Below, in pieces: positions 898 to 7,404 of a DNA stretch of 48,329 nucleotides (the first letter of the stretch is position 1; every line of letters begins with the position of its first letter). The notes beneath the pieces are model-generated. The model did no database searches. It was not told the origin of the DNA and was given only the letters and a program-made list of their open reading frames with translations. Position numbers and translations under genes: made by a program. Source of the DNA: Flavobacteriia bacterium (lineage in GTDB: Bacteria > Bacteroidota > Bacteroidia > Flavobacteriales_D > Crocinitomicaceae); contig RFQZ01000020.1 of assembly GCA_009924735.1 (NCBI GenBank), positions 1 through 48,329 on the forward strand, written 5' to 3'.

Positions 898-940
898 TTT
901 CCCTTTCCCTGGGTCCGCTGCGGACCCAGGGAAGGGAAAG
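898..940. terminator. Strong GC-rich palindrome between convergent genes
   Basis: A perfect 12-bp inverted repeat (arms 907-918 and 920-931, one base between them) is extended by a pyrimidine/purine outer stem with one bulge (898-906 with 932-940). It lies between the 3' ends of the partial plus-strand gene and the minus-strand photolyase operon, so a two-way terminator is the simplest reading. The run of four T at 898 would follow the hairpin as A, and no long U-tract follows it on either strand, so it is not a textbook intrinsic terminator. With almost no loop it could also extrude as a cruciform. Confidence 0.5.
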
Positions 941-960: not shown

Positions 961-2448
961 TTAAACCCCTATCTCATCGAGTGAGGCTAAATAGTTTCTA
1001 GCGTTCGTCAAATGAATTTCTTGTTTTTCCGTCGACATCTTATCAAAGGTATGCACCAACATTCCCAAGCGAGGATTCGATAAAAAGAAGGACCGTTGTT
1101 TGTCCATGAAATGCCAAAAAAGACCGTCCCAAGTCGCTTGCCAATCTCCTTTTTCGTAATCACTCATCTTCATCAAATAATTACTGCCACTGATGTACGG
1201 TTTGGTAGACATCATCCCGCCATCGGCAAATTGACTCATTCCATAAATGTTAGGAACCATAACCCAATCATACGCATCTATGAAAAAAATCATAAACCAC
1301 TCGTACACCTCGTCAGGATCAAATTCGCACAATAACATGAAATTCCCTAGTACCATCAAGCGTTCAATGTGATGACAATAGCCGGTATCAATTGCTTTTT
1401 TTAGGGTGATGTCTATGGGTGCAATCCCAGTGGTTCCGTTCCAAAAAGCGGCAGGTATCTTCCGTTTAAAACCCCAATAATTTCGCGTGCGCTCTTCTTT
1501 TCCCTTGATTTCGTAAACCATGCGAATGAACTCCCTCCAACCCATGATTTGACGTACAAATCCTTCCAATGAATTCATTGGGATGTGGTGCTTTTCAGCA
1601 AAGCCAAGTGCCTCATCTAGGACAAACTGAGGGGTCAAAAGTCCTACGTTCAGCATTGGCGTCAACACACTGTGATGCAAGACCAATTCATCTTTAACAA
1701 TGGCATCCTCATATGTTCCGAAGTCCGCAAAGCGCTCGGTAAAAAAGCGCTGTAACCATTCCTTTGCCCCTCCAAAGGTGGTTGGATATTCAATCCAACC
1801 ACCCAATTTACCTGGATTCTTGGAAAAATAAGTTTCCGTATATGCGTTTGCCTCCCGTTCTCGTTCATTCAATCTGGGAATTTTTATCTCAGGAGCTATG
1901 CCTTTCTTTGGAAACTTACTTCGGTTTTCTTCATCGAAAGACCATTTCCCCCCAAGGGGTTGCTGGTTGGTGTCCACCAAAATGCTGCGTTGTGTGCGCT
2001 GTTGCTTGTAAAAATCCGCTTGAAACAATTTCTTTTTGGATCCAAATTTCGCAGTTAAGGATTCGATGTCATTTAAAAACATCGGGCTCCCAAATTTAAC
2101 TGTCTTGATTTCTTCGGATTGACACGCTAGGGAAATGCGTTTTTCCAGCCACTGATCTGTGGTTTCGACATAATAAAGCGTTGGGTTTCCTAGGGATTTT
2201 ACGTAAGGAATCAGGTGACGTATGTCGGAAATATCTTCGTTGCTTGAAATGTACTTTACCGTCTTTCCTTTCACCAATAACCAGTCTTCATATTGCTTCA
2301 TGGAGCTCCGGTGAAAAGCGATTTTCCGTTTGTGAAAAGGATACTGTCGAAAATACAGGTATTCTTCGACCAGATAAATGATTTCACATGCTGGAAGCAG
2401 TGGGTTTTCTTCAAAAAGTTGATGCGGAAAAATAAGCCCTACGTTCAT
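961..2448 (-). CDS. COG3046 (FeS-BCP type) cryptochrome/photolyase lacking Fe-S cysteines
   Basis: 495 residues, usual for the COG3046 group, whose characterised members include bacterial (6-4) photolyases and CryB-like proteins. The N-terminal Rossmann-like domain (about 1-150) is followed by the helical FAD domain (about 200-490). The two adjacent active-site histidines of this family are present ([11 protein letters not shown], His359-His360), as is the family block [14 protein letters not shown] near 399-411. What is missing is the set of four cysteines that bind the [4Fe-4S] cluster: the expected C-terminal Cys cluster is replaced by [18 protein letters not shown] (428-445), and the upstream Cys position falls in APIDITL. 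The gene is last in the operon, and its ATG overlaps the TGA of the DUF2256 gene (ATGA). Repair of (6-4) photoproducts is inferred from the family. Loss of the cluster may change activity or make this a light sensor. Confidence 0.9.
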
Positions 2449-2591
2449 GCTTGTTGTTTATTCGTTCTACATCGGTCACTACAATATTTGACTTCCTCCC
2501 AAACTTTTTCCCATTTTTTCCTCCAGGTAAAGGGACGCTGACAGGTCAAACAGACTTTTTGCGGCAAATCACTCTTTTTTCGCTGTTTCAT
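2445..2591 (-). CDS. DUF2256 family small Cys-rich protein
   Basis: A 48-residue gene too short for the usual ORF cut-offs. It starts at the ATG 2591-2589, overlapping the TGA of the upstream photolyase (ATGA), and ends with a TGA overlapping the ATG of the downstream COG3046 gene. The protein has two cysteine pairs: [10 protein letters not shown] (Cys14, Cys17) and KYCSDRCR (Cys37, Cys41), separated by a basic and aromatic [12 protein letters not shown] stretch. This is the DUF2256 pattern, a probable single zinc-binding fold. DUF2256 genes are known to occur next to photolyase genes; their role is not established. Overlaps at both ends suggest translation in fixed ratio with the two photolyases. 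A DNA-binding or assembly-factor role is speculation. Confidence 0.92.
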
Positions 2592-4069
2592 TTTCTTGGG
2601 TTGACATGTTTTTTCACAATTCGTTTTGCGTCGTTCTTAACGGCGATTTCTTTTCGAAAGGACCAAACTTCTTCACTTGAAGAACGCTGCGTTTCTTCTA
2701 GGTTCACAATGGGAAACGGGTAATCCACCCCGACGCGAAAGGAATAAAGCGTCTGCTCCATCTCACTTAGCAACCAAGGTTCGTGTATAAATTCAACGGG
2801 AACTGGAGCGAGTTCAGGTACCCACTTTCGAATGAATTCGCCCTGTGCATCGTGCTTTTTTGAATTTTTGATTGGATTGTAGATCCGAATGATGTTCATT
2901 CCTGTTAATCCTGCTTGCATTTGAATCTGTGGGTAATGAATTCCGGGCTCGTAGTCCAAAAAGAGGCGCGCAAGAAAATGCAATTCACGCCAATCTTGAC
3001 CAAGGTTAAAAACATAGAAAGAAACCAACATGGCGCGCATTCGAAAATTGACATACCCCGTTTCGATTAAACAACGCAAACAAGCATCTACAAGCGGCAC
3101 CCCCGTTTTCGCACCATGCCAAGCGGATAAATAGGATTCATTTTTAGGTTTTTCTTTGCCGAGATAGGCCCTGTTAAAAGGTTCAAACTCGATTCGACAT
3201 TCATCTTCAAATTTTTGGATGAAATGGCAATGCCAATGCAGACGAGAAATGAACTGGGTCAAGGCACGTTTGTGGGTCGATGTTTTGTAATGCTGCATGG
3301 TATATTGATACACCATCCGCATGCTGATGTTTCCATAACTTAAATAGGGTGATATGCGGCTACAGCTTTTCCGACTCAAAGCGGGTTTGGAGATGTGATT
3401 TGCATAGTTTACGCCTCTTGTCTTTAGAAAACTGTCCAAGTATTTCCATGCAAAAGATTCTCCGCCAGGTTGGAAATTAGGATGGTCAGTGGTTATATCG
3501 GTTGGCAAATCAACGCCTTTAAGCTGACGATAGGTGGTCGTATCCAGCGCAAGTACATTCAAATCCTTTTCCGAGGCTAAAAAAGGCTTTTGTTCCATGA
3601 TGGCCTTCCATCTTTTTTCCCAACCTACCCTTGTGTTTCCACCTCGTTGAACCGCATTGTGTGTGTATTCATTCCACCTAATGTGATGTGCGTTACAAAA
3701 TGCTTGTACTTTTTTATCCCTTTGGAAAGTTAAACGGTTTCCAACTTCTTGGTGAGAGAAAATCGTTTGAATTTGATAGGTTTTTTGTAATTCACTGAAC
3801 AATGGAATTGCTTCCGAATGAAAATAGTAAAGCTGTGCGTTCCGTTCGCTAAGCTTCGCATTCATTTCCCGTAAGGATTGATATACAAAACGCCAATGCC
3901 TTACGTCGCTGTCGTGGTAGTGCATGACCGTTGGTTCAAAGCAATAGAGGAGAAGGATGGGCAACGACTGTTTTTGGGCTTGAAACAAGGCTTCGTGATC
4001 TGTAAATCGCAAATCTCGCTTAAACCAAACCACAACGATTTCCGGCTTGTCTAAATGTTGCTCGGCCAT
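2588..4069 (-). CDS. Cryptochrome/photolyase family protein with atypical FAD pocket
   Basis: 493 residues with the standard layout: N-terminal antenna-type alpha/beta domain ([17 protein letters not shown] at 12-28) and C-terminal FAD domain ([14 protein letters not shown] near 237-250, [20 protein letters not shown] at 321-340, RIYNP and EGF-like [11 protein letters not shown] near 395-420). The stretch that in classical photolyases carries the flavin-N5-proximal Asn and two Trp of the electron-transfer chain (consensus DGDLAANNGGWQW) reads [13 protein letters not shown] here (372-384). The Asn position is therefore His378, and the Trp positions are Ile382 and Met384. I recall this EPGIHY block as a subfamily feature in Bacteroidota and cyanobacteria. 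DNA photorepair is the family default; the substrate and even repair activity are uncertain. The start at 4069 overlaps the flavin reductase gene by 19 bases. Confidence 0.9.
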
Positions 4070-4680
4070 TTCTCAGGTTTAGCATAGGACAGACGATGCA
4101 AAAATTTGTTTTCATAATAGGCATCTAATCCCGCGCAGGTTAAGGTATTCGCTTTTGCAACGTCAATAAATCCGTCATCCGATAGCCACTGTTCATCCAA
4201 TTCGATGTACTGAATGCTGCCAATGATGAGTAAGGTTCCATTGATGGCGATGTTTATTTTTTCTTCGAACTTCATCCCTATTTTAATCGGAGCTTCCTCG
4301 ACAAAAGGAGCAGTGAAAGGTTCAATAATTCGCTCGGTGAAACCGCACGCCTCAAATTCTGAAACATTGCTGGGGTATTTTGCCGATGTCTGGTGTGCGT
4401 TCTCGGAATGATCTTTATGAATCATATTCAGGGTGTATTGTCCCGTTTCGAGGATGTTGCGTAAGGTGTCGCGCTGAACGGTGTCTGGCCGACAAATGAA
4501 TCCCCACAAGGGTGGATTCGCCCCAATGTGAACCAATGAGTTGAAAATGGCCACATTTGAATTTCCGTCCAACGATTTTGTTCCAATCAAAAAAGCTTGC
4601 TTAATACCAGCCAGGGAATTGATTAAAATCGCTCGGTAGCGATTCTCAAATTGATTGAGTTGTGAAGAATCAATGATCAT
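4051..4680 (-). CDS. Flavin reductase family protein (FMN-binding split barrel)
   Basis: 209 residues from the ATG at 4680, which overlaps the TGA of the upstream gene (ATGA). A longer frame to 4773 exists but would run into the upstream gene, so I reject it. The sequence matches the FMN-binding split-barrel flavin reductase family: an N-terminal strand block ([16 protein letters not shown]), then [42 protein letters not shown] (split over about residues 70-90) and a C-terminal [10 protein letters not shown]. Such proteins bind FMN and reduce or use flavins with NAD(P)H. Placed between two photolyase genes and translationally coupled to one, it may maintain reduced flavin for the photolyases, but this is inference; photolyase FAD is normally reduced by light or by general cell reductants. 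Confidence 0.88.
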
Positions 4681-5780
4681 GCGTGCAATTGTTTTTGAAG
4701 GAGTTCTTTGTTCAACACTTTCCAATAGGCAAAGAAAGAGGGGAAATATCCCGTTATTTCCTCTGAAATCCAATCCCTAGGATCCTCTGTTCCAGCATAA
4801 CCCTCATTCAAGGGATGTTCTTTGAAAAAAATTTCACCCAATGAATGGGTTTCCGTGAGTTCTTTGAAAGAGCCAACAAAAAGTTGGAGGTTCTCAATGT
4901 TCTTTCCAAGTTCCAAAATGAATTGTAGAACATTTGGACTTACAGGATGCTCCTTAAAAAAAACAGGATCGAGTAATAAAATGCGATTGCCCACTTCTTC
5001 ACGGTGCCATGTTGGATCGAGGTTGTAGGGGTTGTAAACAAACGTTGGAAGAGAGCCATTCACTTGAATTTTTTCAGCGGTAGGAAGAAGGGTCTCCAGC
5101 TGTATTTCACATGTTTCCATCAACGCTTTAGGAATTTTTTTTGGTGGCAAAGATTCATAGGGTGTGTCAAGAAAGGTCCCATTCTGTTGCGTGCCTGCGA
5201 AGCGATTGATGTTCTCCTGGTTTGCGACGTATTTTTTATTGCTATTCGCTCCACATACCCATTGCCAGCTGCAGCGGTTACTCGCCCAGTCGCCGTCTAA
5301 CAAATGGTAATACATCCATTTTGAAGGCAACAACCAATGTGATTTTCCGATGTTCGTTGCCACGGCTGCAGTGTACATACGCATGTGATTGTGCATGTAT
5401 CCGTGTTTGTAAAGCGTTTCTATGGCGTGGTCTATGCCTTGAATACCTGTTTGTGCATTCACGACCGCAGACGGAATCTCTCGATGCTCCACATCTGCTT
5501 GCGTAAATTTGAGATCTAAAGCCAAGTTTCGAACTTGTCCCAAACGTTGAAAGTAATCACGCCAAGCGAGCTCTTTGACAAAACTTTCCATGTCTTCTAG
5601 GTGATACCCTTTGGCAAGCATTGCTTCCAAGACCATTTTTGTACTGATTACACCCCTCGAAATATAGGGGGAGAGGTAGGTTACGGCCCCGGCCAAATAA
5701 TTACGTGTCTCGCCGTACTTTATCGGATCTATTTGCGCAATTCGGTCGAGAATTTCTGCATATTTGGTAGGGAAATTCAT
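4677..5780 (-). CDS. Antenna-less photolyase: FAD-binding domain first, alpha/beta-like domain last
   Basis: 367 residues that begin directly in the photolyase FAD-binding domain. Landmarks are YGETRNYLAGAVTYLSPYIS (22-41), ELAWRDYFQR (70-79), a GIQGIDHAIETLYKHGYMHN block (112-131), then DGDWASNRCSWQW (162-174) and NKKYVANQENINR (181-193). The flavin-proximal Asn (168) and both Trp of the WQW block (172, 174) are kept. No N-terminal antenna domain exists. After the FAD domain comes about 110 residues that look alpha/beta: RILLLDPVFFKEHPVS (266-281), LQFILELGKNIENLQLFVGS (285-304), EIFFKEHP (316-323), PRDW and GYFPSFFAYWK (344-354). These resemble the normally N-terminal photolyase domain, suggesting reversed domain order. 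It follows the TIGR03643 gene with no spacer. Confidence 0.9.
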   Translation of the reverse strand: MNFPTKYAEILDRIAQIDPIKYGETRNYLAGAVTYLSPYISRGVISTKMVLEAMLAKGYHLEDMESFVKELAWRDYFQRLGQVRNLALDLKFTQADVEHREIPSAVVNAQTGIQGIDHAIETLYKHGYMHNHMRMYTAAVATNIGKSHWLLPSKWMYYHLLDGDWASNRCSWQWVCGANSNKKYVANQENINRFAGTQQNGTFLDTPYESLPPKKIPKALMETCEIQLETLLPTAEKIQVNGSLPTFVYNPYNLDPTWHREEVGNRILLLDPVFFKEHPVSPNVLQFILELGKNIENLQLFVGSFKELTETHSLGEIFFKEHPLNEGYAGTEDPRDWISEEITGYFPSFFAYWKVLNKELLQKQLHA

Positions 5781-6050
5781 TTATCGCTTGCTGATTTTGT
5801 TCATCGAAATGCCCGTTTGACGGGTACATTTAAAGCGTTGAATTTCTGGATTGCGTTTTTTAGCGTGCTTTAGGCTTACCCCACTGTTCACACGTTCTCG
5901 CCATAAAATAAAACTGCTACGCTTTAGCTCCTTGCGCATCAATGCAATTACCTGAGTTTCTGTTTGGCCAAATTGTGAAAAAATCGCTTCGAAGGGTGTT
6001 CTGTCTTCCCAAGCCATTTCAATGATGCGATCTATGTCGACTTGTTCCAT
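5781..6050 (-). CDS. TIGR03643 family small protein, first gene of photolyase operon
   Basis: 89 residues. I recognise the TIGR03643 pattern: an acidic N-terminal helix pair (DIDRIIEMAWEDRTPFEAIF), a predicted helix-turn-helix-like stretch (GQTETQVIALMRKELKRSSF), WRERV, then a basic C-terminus (KHAKKRN, RFKCTRQ, KISKR). Members are known mainly as small proteins encoded near photolyase genes, with no assigned function. The high positive charge at the C-terminus and the helical N-terminus would suit nucleic acid binding, which is inference. The TAA is followed at once by the ATG of the FAD-domain photolyase, so the two are surely co-transcribed. The operon promoter should lie just upstream in 6051-6130, where I see no confident -7/-33 pair. 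Confidence 0.85.
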   Translation of the reverse strand: MEQVDIDRIIEMAWEDRTPFEAIFSQFGQTETQVIALMRKELKRSSFILWRERVNSGVSLKHAKKRNPEIQRFKCTRQTGISMNKISKR

Positions 6051-6174: not shown

Positions 6175-6377
6175 TTACGAATTTTTCAATTGGTTGATCT
6201 CTTGACCAAGAATAGGAATGTTATTTTGAATAATCCCCCAAAGGATTTCTGGCTCGACCGAATTGTATGCATGAGAAATAATATTTCGCAATCCAATGAT
6301 ATTTTTAGCGGAAGAAATTTGAATGCTTGAATAATACTTTCAATGTCAAGTATATATTTTAGAAGTTTAGGCTGCAT
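6175..6377 (-). pseudogene. HEPN (HepT-like) toxin remnant, internal deletion and frameshift
   Basis: Two parts of a HEPN toxin lie in different frames. The start (ATG 6377-6375) gives MQPKLLKYILDIESII, the typical first helix of HepT-like proteins. The rest is found only after a frame change: SIQISSAKNIIGLRNIISHAYN and VEPEILWGIIQNNIPIL in pieces, ending at the stop 6177-6175. It includes the RNIISH (R-x4-H) active-site motif. About 35-40 residues that normally separate these parts are missing. The junction sits at a short direct repeat, TTGAAT at 6319-6324 and 6327-6332 (plus strand), as expected for a slippage deletion. The start overlaps the end of the MNT gene, the normal MNT-HEPN arrangement. 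The toxin is therefore almost certainly inactive. Confidence 0.8.
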
Positions 6378-6675
6378 ATAGGTCAACTTTCGAACGATTG
6401 ATTTCTTCTATTAACACAGGGTTTTTCAATGATTTTAGGGTGACAAGGTCAATTTTACTTCCAAATAATTCTTTGAGTTTATCTAGTAAAGAGAAGTAAT
6501 TATCTGCGTAGGCCAAAACATTTAAATCCTCTGAAAACTGAACCAGAAAGTCAAAATCACTGTGCGTGTGCATTTGATCTCTTGCAGCCGAACCAAACAT
6601 GGCAAAAGATGTTACTTGATGTGCCTTGCAGAGTAAAATGATCTCTTGAAGCTTATGTTCGATTTGTTGGGTCAT
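6367..6675 (-). CDS. MNT-type nucleotidyltransferase (antitoxin of HEPN/MNT pair)
   Basis: 102 residues, normal for minimal nucleotidyltransferases. The catalytic motif FGSAARDQMHTHSDFDFLV (residues about 28-46) has the GS-x10-D-x-D arrangement that binds metal and NTP. A further acidic position is in KIDLVTL (about 75-81). In the type VII HEPN/MNT systems the MNT protein acts as antitoxin, in studied cases by adding AMP to the HEPN toxin. Its partner at 6175-6377 is broken, so this antitoxin may be an orphan or may act on another target. The reading frame itself looks intact. Intergenic G-rich elements lie on both sides of the pair. Confidence 0.85.
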   Translation of the reverse strand: MTQQIEHKLQEIILLCKAHQVTSFAMFGSAARDQMHTHSDFDFLVQFSEDLNVLAYADNYFSLLDKLKELFGSKIDLVTLKSLKNPVLIEEINRSKVDLYAA

Positions 6676-6993
6676 CTTAAATCAAATATAGGTCTTTTTT
6701 CAAGGAATGTACATTTTAAAACCATAAGGATTTCGGCAAAGGTAATCATAGCGATTCGCACCCCCTGCTCCCCCTCCCTTTCAGGAAGGAAGGGGCCAAG
6801 GGCCACAAAAATGAATGTAAAGCCCAATGAATTTATTTTTTCATGTTTTGGCCTTAATTAGCAGGTGAATATTTTCCTTACTGAATTCTTTAAAAAATTG
6901 GATACAAAAAAAGGGCACCATGGAATGATGCCCTTTTCACTTAAACTTAAAACTGGATTATTATCTTTTTTATGGATACAATAAGCTACGTTG
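6676..6993. other. Intergenic region with imperfect inverted repeat and a terminator
   Basis: There is no convincing gene in these 318 bases. An imperfect C/G inverted repeat (arms 6771-6780 and 6786-6795, one mismatch, five-base loop) lies in the middle. A clear minus-strand terminator is at 6906-6937. The MNT gene promoter should lie near 6676-6730, where the sequence is A+T-rich. Confidence 0.5.
6906..6937 (-). terminator. Intrinsic terminator of the 6994-7404 lipoprotein gene
   Basis: A perfect 9-bp stem (AAAAGGGCA at 6909-6917 with TGCCCTTTT at 6929-6937). On the minus strand it is followed by a run of seven T (6906-6912 on the plus strand, partly in the stem). It lies about 60 bases past the stop codon of the lipoprotein gene. 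Confidence 0.8.
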
Positions 6994-7404
6994 TCAACCT
7001 TTTCGCGGGTGTTTACATGTTTCATTTTCGTAGCATTTTACCAACGAAGAGTTACCTAGAATACCTTTCACTTGAGAAATAAAGTCCGCTTGGGATTTTA
7101 CGTCAAGTTCATTTAACCCAAAACAATAATCAACTTCACCTTCTCTTCCCCAATGAATTATTTCAACCTTCAAATTGATTTTATTGGTGGCGTTGAATTC
7201 TTGAATGAATTGATTGAACTTTTGTTTTGCTTGTTTATCGGTGCCACTTCCAATGCTAATAAATGAAACCCCAAATCGAAATACAGTATCCGATAAAACA
7301 GAATTTGAAGACTCTTTTTGTTTTTTGTTTCCAGCACTTGGATTTTTTGCACTGTTACAGGAAAAAAGAGAAAATAGGATGCAGAGCGTTATTAGACTTT
7401 TCAT
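6994..7404 (-). CDS. Putative lipoprotein, unknown function
   Basis: 136 residues. The N-terminus is a lipoprotein signal peptide with hydrophobic core LITLCILFSLF and lipobox LFSC (Cys16), so the mature protein should be lipid-anchored. The rest is hydrophilic, with a predicted beta strand (FRFGVSFISIGSG), a helix (QKFNQFIQEFNATN) and a second strand (LKVEIIHWGREGEVDYCF), then VKSQADFISQVKGIL. Two later cysteines (KCYENETCKH) may form a disulphide. I do not recognise a named family. It stands alone, with a good terminator downstream and the M43 protease gene upstream in the same direction, 42 bases away. Confidence 0.7.
   Translation of the reverse strand: MKSLITLCILFSLFSCNSAKNPSAGNKKQKESSNSVLSDTVFRFGVSFISIGSGTDKQAKQKFNQFIQEFNATNKINLKVEIIHWGREGEVDYCFGLNELDVKSQADFISQVKGILGNSSLVKCYENETCKHPRKG

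Follow-up and report, generated by a model that had tools for sequence, protein, structure and literature searches.

A probable modular photoreactivation cassette of Bacteroidota with three photolyase-family proteins, a flavin reductase and two small conserved proteins

Photolyases are usually regarded as stand-alone enzymes. Short photolyase-like (SPL) proteins, also named NewPHL, were reportedly described by Emmerich (2020) and Xu (2021). In Synechococcus sp. PCC 7335, a two-gene photolyase operon with overlapping frames is induced by ultraviolet (UV)-B, according to PMC9649867, the main text of which contains neither 'reductase' nor 'TIGR03643'. The contig RFQZ01000020.1 of a Flavobacteriia bacterium (48,329 nt, hereafter the window) carries a group of six genes that resembles this operon in its photolyase-family genes with overlapping frames and differs from it in that the Synechococcus operon has two genes only. 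We propose, with a probability of about 0.75, that the group is a recurring, modular photoreactivation cassette or operon of Bacteroidota, in which photolyases that complement one another are joined by a reductase and by two helpers that putatively bind nucleic acid. Each of the families has already been described; the assembled cassette and the tie between DUF2256 and the (6-4) photolyase were not met in the searchable literature. Among the titles and abstract openings that were listed, there was no description of the cassette, and no paper linking DUF2256 with photolyase was found in a search that left most subscription papers outside; DUF2805 and DUF2256 were each met in two papers, in passages about other matters. 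With its reductase and two conserved small proteins, the cassette provides a concrete, testable hypothesis: DUF2256 and TIGR03643 may assist DNA repair that is driven by sunlight.

The six open reading frames (ORFs) adjoin or overlap in one reading direction on the minus strand between 6050 and 961 (Table 1). From gene 1 to gene 6, the junctions were a TAA/ATG without spacer, an ATGA, a 19-nt overlap (4051-4069) and two further ATGA junctions. The first-pass annotation had described six minus-strand genes joined in this way, and three photolyase-fold proteins of different subfamilies among them; the former was borne out by the ORF coordinates and the sequence at the junctions, and the latter by the Pfam and NCBIfam matches, which for genes 1 to 6 were TIGR03643/DUF2805, FAD_binding_7 only, Flavin_Reduct, DNA_photolyase with FAD_binding_7, DUF2256, and DPRP with a weak FAD_binding_7. 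For gene 3, the ATG at 4680 was chosen as the start because the alternative longer TTG frame, starting at 4773, would reach back into gene 2, and because, counted from that ATG, the match to PDB 3fge begins at residue 5. The layout is consistent with a single transcript. The inverted repeat beyond gene 6, which the terminator scan did not list, may be a 3'-end hairpin, one without a T-run. A fourth photolyase-type gene was found elsewhere in the same genome (C16:41490-41942, within a 434-aa frame).

Table 1. Features of the six-gene group in the window, in reading order.
Feature	Protein	Coordinates	Strand	Size	Remarks
Gene 1, TIGR03643/DUF2805 protein	P0001	5781..6050	-	89 aa	
Gene 2, predicted short photolyase, NewPHL/SPL type	P0002	4677..5780	-	367 aa	FAD domain first, alpha/beta C-terminal part
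Gene 3, flavin reductase	P0003	4051..4680	-	209 aa (from ATG)	Flavin_Reduct; PDB 3fge match
Gene 4, photolyase/cryptochrome family, His-at-N5 subfamily 'PhrH'	P0004	2588..4069	-	493 aa	
Gene 5, DUF2256 mini-protein	P0005	2445..2591	-	48 aa	CxxC...CxxxC pattern
Gene 6, putative prokaryotic (6-4) photolyase family (DPRP/COG3046), Fe-S-free	P0006	961..2448	-	495 aa	
Inverted repeat		899..939	.	20 nt, 1-nt gap	90% complementary; starts 22 nt past the gene 6 stop

The neighbourhood was compared over 80 loci located by the short photolyase, in which many contigs are short, so that neighbour counts are lower bounds. Within 8 kb of this gene, DPRP was present in at least 41 loci, DUF2256 in at least 38, a Phr type in at least 26 and a flavin reductase in at least 23; in at least 36, TIGR03643 was the gene immediately preceding it. 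When genes were joined into runs (gaps up to 400 nt, short fragments dropped), neighbouring open frames mostly overlapped, the next starting before the previous stop (short photolyase-PhrH, 18/20; DUF2256-DPRP, 16/17), and the order of flavin reductase, PhrH, DUF2256 and DPRP varied among the runs. All six genes were found in two of the 80 runs, L178 and L184 (Gillisia hiemivivida), and another locus (L154) holds all six with one gap of ~500 nt. Among 93 DUF2256 loci, one yielded no run, and 56 of the remaining 92 runs contained at least one photolyase-type gene. The tight overlaps and the recurring set would also suit a stable multiprotein light-driven complex, in which the six proteins would associate and hand on electrons or lesions; the members are, however, freely lost and shuffled, the short photolyase being alone in 11 of the 80 runs and accompanied by TIGR03643 only in 12 (short contigs among them), and such a complex appears improbable.

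A search of 40 genomes of close kin gave matches at an E-value of 1e-60 in 20, including the genome of the window and 14 of 24 other genomes of the genus. Thirteen of the 14 same-genus loci were read, G305 being a fragment and therefore omitted, together with six loci that represent five other genomes of the order. The His-type PhrH lay downstream of the short photolyase on the same strand in all 13 same-genus loci, with the reductase in between in two. Five of the six genes were kept in order in G313 (no TIGR03643 call, on a 6-kb contig), in G315 (flavin reductase missing) and, at the level of the order, in G330 (TIGR03643-short photolyase-PhrH-DUF2256-DPRP). The other order-level loci carry TIGR03643-short photolyase-PhrH-DPRP (G327), a short photolyase-PhrH-flavin reductase fragment (G329), short photolyase-DUF2256-short-chain dehydrogenase-DPRP (G321) and, twice in G319, short photolyase-flavin reductase. 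Conservation of the gene order in kin, on which the first-pass annotation had made its reading depend, held in part: the order is exact in one of the 13 same-genus loci (G310, L228), and the other 12 keep two to five genes per run; the group is therefore better described as a modular cassette than as a fixed machine. A possible seventh member is a short-chain dehydrogenase of one family, found within the cassette or close to it in 31 loci (for example, L243 10031-10756 and L236 8170-8874; phmmer, E 1e-40); in eight same-genus loci, the open frames of the dehydrogenase and the short photolyase overlap.

Co-occurrence was analyzed in 296 genomes of the phylum and 14 control genomes. DUF2256 was found in 94 of the 296 genomes (the matches in G011 and G082 being partial and weak) and DPRP in 100, and TIGR03643 occurred in 84, of which 70 had DPRP and 70 had DUF2256. 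Thus DUF2256 co-occurs with the (6-4) photolyase, and TIGR03643 does so less tightly. Some match to the short-photolyase profile was obtained in 196 genomes, other photolyases matching too; a full-length short photolyase, taken as a match of at least 370 bits (in G150, two pieces of one frame), was present in 17, all of which had DUF2256 and DPRP and 14 of which had TIGR03643. Within the genus g7, nine genomes carry both DUF2256 and DPRP and eight others carry neither. Among the controls, Caulobacter and Synechococcus elongatus had both DUF2256 and DPRP, Haloferax had DPRP only, and none had TIGR03643. Since the families co-occur in the 296 genomes and run together in many loci, the grouping goes beyond chance, and of the shared light-driven repair or sensing complex that the first-pass annotation had suggested, it is a linked light-repair unit that the recurring neighbourhood and the co-occurrence support. 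The genes might have been collected for UV resistance and inherited together without biochemical interplay, as their modular, shuffled content and the presence of parts on plasmids would allow; DUF2256, however, tracks the (6-4) enzyme even when the two lie apart, both being present in 86 of the 94 DUF2256 genomes, yet DPRP in just 31 of the 92 DUF2256 runs. Because the pairing at genome level exceeds that at run level, it is not predicted by linkage alone, and co-inheritance as the whole explanation is doubtful, with a real chance of being right. Nineteen plasmid records matched DUF2256; of the 13 that were read, six have a photolyase-type gene within ~5 kb of it.

The product of gene 6 scored 157.9 bits with DPRP and fell below the cut-off of FAD_binding_7 (21.6 vs 27). 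Its closest solved structures are prokaryotic (6-4) photolyases with an iron-sulfur (Fe-S) cluster, the top PDB match being 7ykn. None of the four Fe-S cysteines was found at the aligned positions, Pro344 taking the place of the first and the CxxC...C loop being missing, which sets the protein apart from FeS-BCP. Among 70 collected DPRP members (window included), Pro occupies the first ligand position in 52 and Cys in 18, and the CxxC...C motif is present in 18. Residues His360, Tyr418 and Tyr424, conserved in 70/70, correspond to His366, Tyr424 and Tyr430 of PhrB (numbering transferred by way of the alignment to 7ykn, with PhrB Cys438 as the anchor), to which passages of PMC4619345 assign lesion-site roles from mutants. 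Gene 6 is thus assigned, from its sequence, to the prokaryotic (6-4) photolyase family as a putative Fe-S-free member that retains the lesion-site residues. It is like FeS-BCP (PhrB, CryB and the Vibrio cholerae and Caulobacter proteins) and subgroup M in having DPRP, the flavin adenine dinucleotide (FAD) domain and these residues, and unlike FeS-BCP in having lost the four cysteines, as in subgroup M (PromaPL), the Fe-S-free (6-4) photolyases of section 13 of PMC9178010. Passages elsewhere mention several orthologs without the Fe-S cysteines (PMC12082625) and their absence from 7% of 464 proteins (PMC4619345). In the 70-row DPRP tree, of which the bootstrap was not fully settled and L115 forms a long row, the Fe-S type lies on one side of a branch with a support of 100/100, requiring one change vs 16.1 in shuffles. 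A short photolyase was present in the same locus for 44 of the 52 Fe-S-free members vs three of the 18 Fe-S members, the 80 loci having been picked by the short photolyase; in the set chosen by DUF2256 and counted per genome, a NewPHL-type enzyme accompanied the Fe-S-free DPRP in 10/16 and the Fe-S type in 1/16 (Fisher 0.002, kinship ignored). The cassette thereby reveals one genomic context in which Fe-S-free (6-4) photolyases occur, often alongside NewPHL-type enzymes.

The AlphaFold model of the gene 2 product has a predicted local distance difference test (pLDDT) score of 97. In a structure search covering residues 1-223, residues 1-217 of the model aligned to residues 196-461 of the 1dnp chain, so that the FAD-binding domain stands at the front, with no N-terminal alpha/beta domain and no space for one before it. 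The segment following the FAD domain (246-366; pLDDT blocks of 92-99) is predicted to be alpha/beta, which points to an inverted topology. Compared by hhalign with the photolyase antenna domain, this C-terminal part gave a probability of 23.6 (E 8.6e-4, 64 columns) for the Phr-family N-domain, both types included, and one of 0.2 for the DPRP N-domain. Asn168, Trp172 and Trp174 are kept in 91/91 members of the short-photolyase family; the family sets comprise frames above a minimum length and <700 aa, contig-end fragments, as well as L164 and L171 in set A2, being left out, and a cysteine-bearing short photolyase of 268 aa (L120) is not among the 91. On the model, gene 2 is classed as a predicted short photolyase of the NewPHL/SPL kind, which it resembles in its N-terminal FAD-binding domain with a further domain behind, as these proteins are characterized in passages of works citing the original studies (PMC13274461, PMC9178010). 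Its profile also matched, over the full length, four proteins from alphaproteobacterial plasmids, taken as NewPHLs, of which three are annotated 'FAD-binding domain-containing' and one comes from an unannotated record. It differs from NewPHLs in a shorter C-terminal domain, by itself not recognisable against theirs, and in being embedded in a multi-photolyase cassette. A Deinococcus plasmid protein (L212 2396-3811) also has its FAD domain first, together with a cysteine set resembling Fe-S short photolyases and, by eye, an alpha/beta-looking C-terminus.

Gene 4 shares the two domains of CRY-DASH and class I CPD (cyclobutane pyrimidine dimer) photolyases, and its score reached the cut-off of none of the NCBIfam class models listed. 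Its top PDB match is the Synechocystis cryptochrome 1np7, to which the region around His378 aligns without gaps. We take the position of His378 to be that of the photolyase Asn adjoining flavin N5, and Ile382 presumably occupies that of the Trp-triad member next to it. Assignment to CRY-DASH was rejected on a score far under the cut-off (TIGR02765, 149.5 vs 317.05 bits), and assignment to class I CPD photolyases on the score (PRK10674, 159.5 vs 506 bits) as well as on His378 and Ile382; a DASH-like group is named in passages of PMC9178010. Among 92 collected Phr-type proteins, the N5 position is His in 47 and Asn in 45. The His type was found in 23 runs of the 80 short-photolyase loci and the Asn type in none, the latter occurring in 37/92 DUF2256 runs. 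Flavin chemistry should differ in this His-type subfamily, and PhrH might be a cryptochrome-like receptor in a light-sensing or regulatory operon, with TIGR03643 as its DNA-binding regulator and the repair enzymes as outputs. The frequency of His at N5, the weakly helix-turn-helix (HTH)-like character of TIGR03643 and bacteriorhodopsin-like genes near some cassettes favor such an operon, which we nevertheless consider improbable. The latter genes were found in 6/172 neighbourhood sets by BLAST grouping (L057, L151, L153, L166, L171 and L179), and one lies two genes before TIGR03643 in the same-genus locus L228 of G310 (6632-7360); PF01036 was confirmed for those of L171 and L228. No match to such a gene was obtained in the window genome, in a search whose controls gave none either.

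Gene 3 matched Flavin_Reduct with 65.8 bits (cut-off 27) and 3fge, a split-barrel putative flavin reductase, with 188 bits. On a Vibrio plasmid, a PhrH gene is followed by a reductase gene of this same family. Flavin reductases of a second, distinct family were found near the cassette in 11/172 sets (for example, L144 2582-3130; Pfam scan of one member). Gene 5 scored 82.5 bits with DUF2256 (cut-off 25), a family that a passage of PMC4047054 assigns to the metal-binding TRASH clan, and gene 1 scored 109.6 bits with TIGR03643 (cut-off 66.55). The predicted structure of TIGR03643 has a helical core (3-56, four helices) and an uncertain, basic, conserved tail; its structure matches, many of them to HTH domains, did not rise above noise, and nucleic-acid binding by it is therefore a guess, as it is for DUF2256. 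In L115 (3869-4348), DUF2256 carries an extra C-terminal stretch, presumably resembling DUF3253. A weaker, separate TIGR03643 paralogue (~69-84 bits, mostly in 97-aa frames) is present in G021, G025, G057 and other g7 genomes.

Taken as a photoreactivation cassette, the genes would divide the work as follows. The short NewPHL-type protein would repair CPDs after UV, by precedent in single-stranded DNA, and the Fe-S-free enzyme (6-4) photoproducts. PhrH would be a divergent flavoprotein, with the customary Asn and one customary Trp missing from its flavin site; it may work on another lesion class or serve as a receptor of light. The gene 3 reductase may hold the flavin reduced or feed reduced flavin to the photolyase-family proteins. 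DUF2256 and TIGR03643 (HTH-like at best) may be accessory factors, perhaps binding nucleic acid, the role of DUF2256 being tied to the (6-4) enzyme. A bolder version, a dedicated photorepair machine, is a long shot: in it, the flavins of PhrH and of the Fe-S-free (6-4) photolyase would be charged by the reductase instead of a Trp chain, and both small proteins would be photolyase loading factors, DUF2256 being tied specifically to (6-4) repair across bacteria.

Several observations weigh against the cassette. The promoter scan found no signal above chance at the operon. The order is not fixed: two of the 13 same-genus loci (G312 and G314) hold only short photolyase-PhrH-DPRP, and eight hold only short photolyase-PhrH, with a more divergent short photolyase. 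In 36/92 DUF2256 loci, the same strand carries no cassette gene up to 400 nt away, and 7/13 plasmid DUF2256 loci are without a photolyase-type gene within ~5 kb, the link looking looser there. DUF2256 occurs without DPRP in eight genomes, DPRP without DUF2256 in 14, and TIGR03643 with neither in 10, eight of which carry the weaker paralogue only. The Fisher values for co-occurrence, down to 2e-49, treat genomes as independent and ignore phylogeny. Finally, PhrB turned insoluble once its Fe-S ligands were lost, as a passage of PMC4619345 states, and the Fe-S-free gene 6 protein must therefore get its stability in some other way.

Near cassette genes, an ABC1/UbiB kinase was found in 13/172 sets and a TetR-type regulator in 12, with one member of each scanned (L074 10991-12334, L037 6862-7530, L211 3727-5076); on a Ruegeria plasmid, an ABC1/UbiB gene also comes after the NewPHL-like gene. 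Just upstream of the operon in the window, 6370-6681 (minus strand) encodes a nucleotidyltransferase-domain protein (Polbeta/NTP_transf_2, Pfam), presumably of the kind known from MntA-HepT pairs. Behind it lies a short frame without Pfam match (6186-6386, minus strand), which may be a decayed partner.
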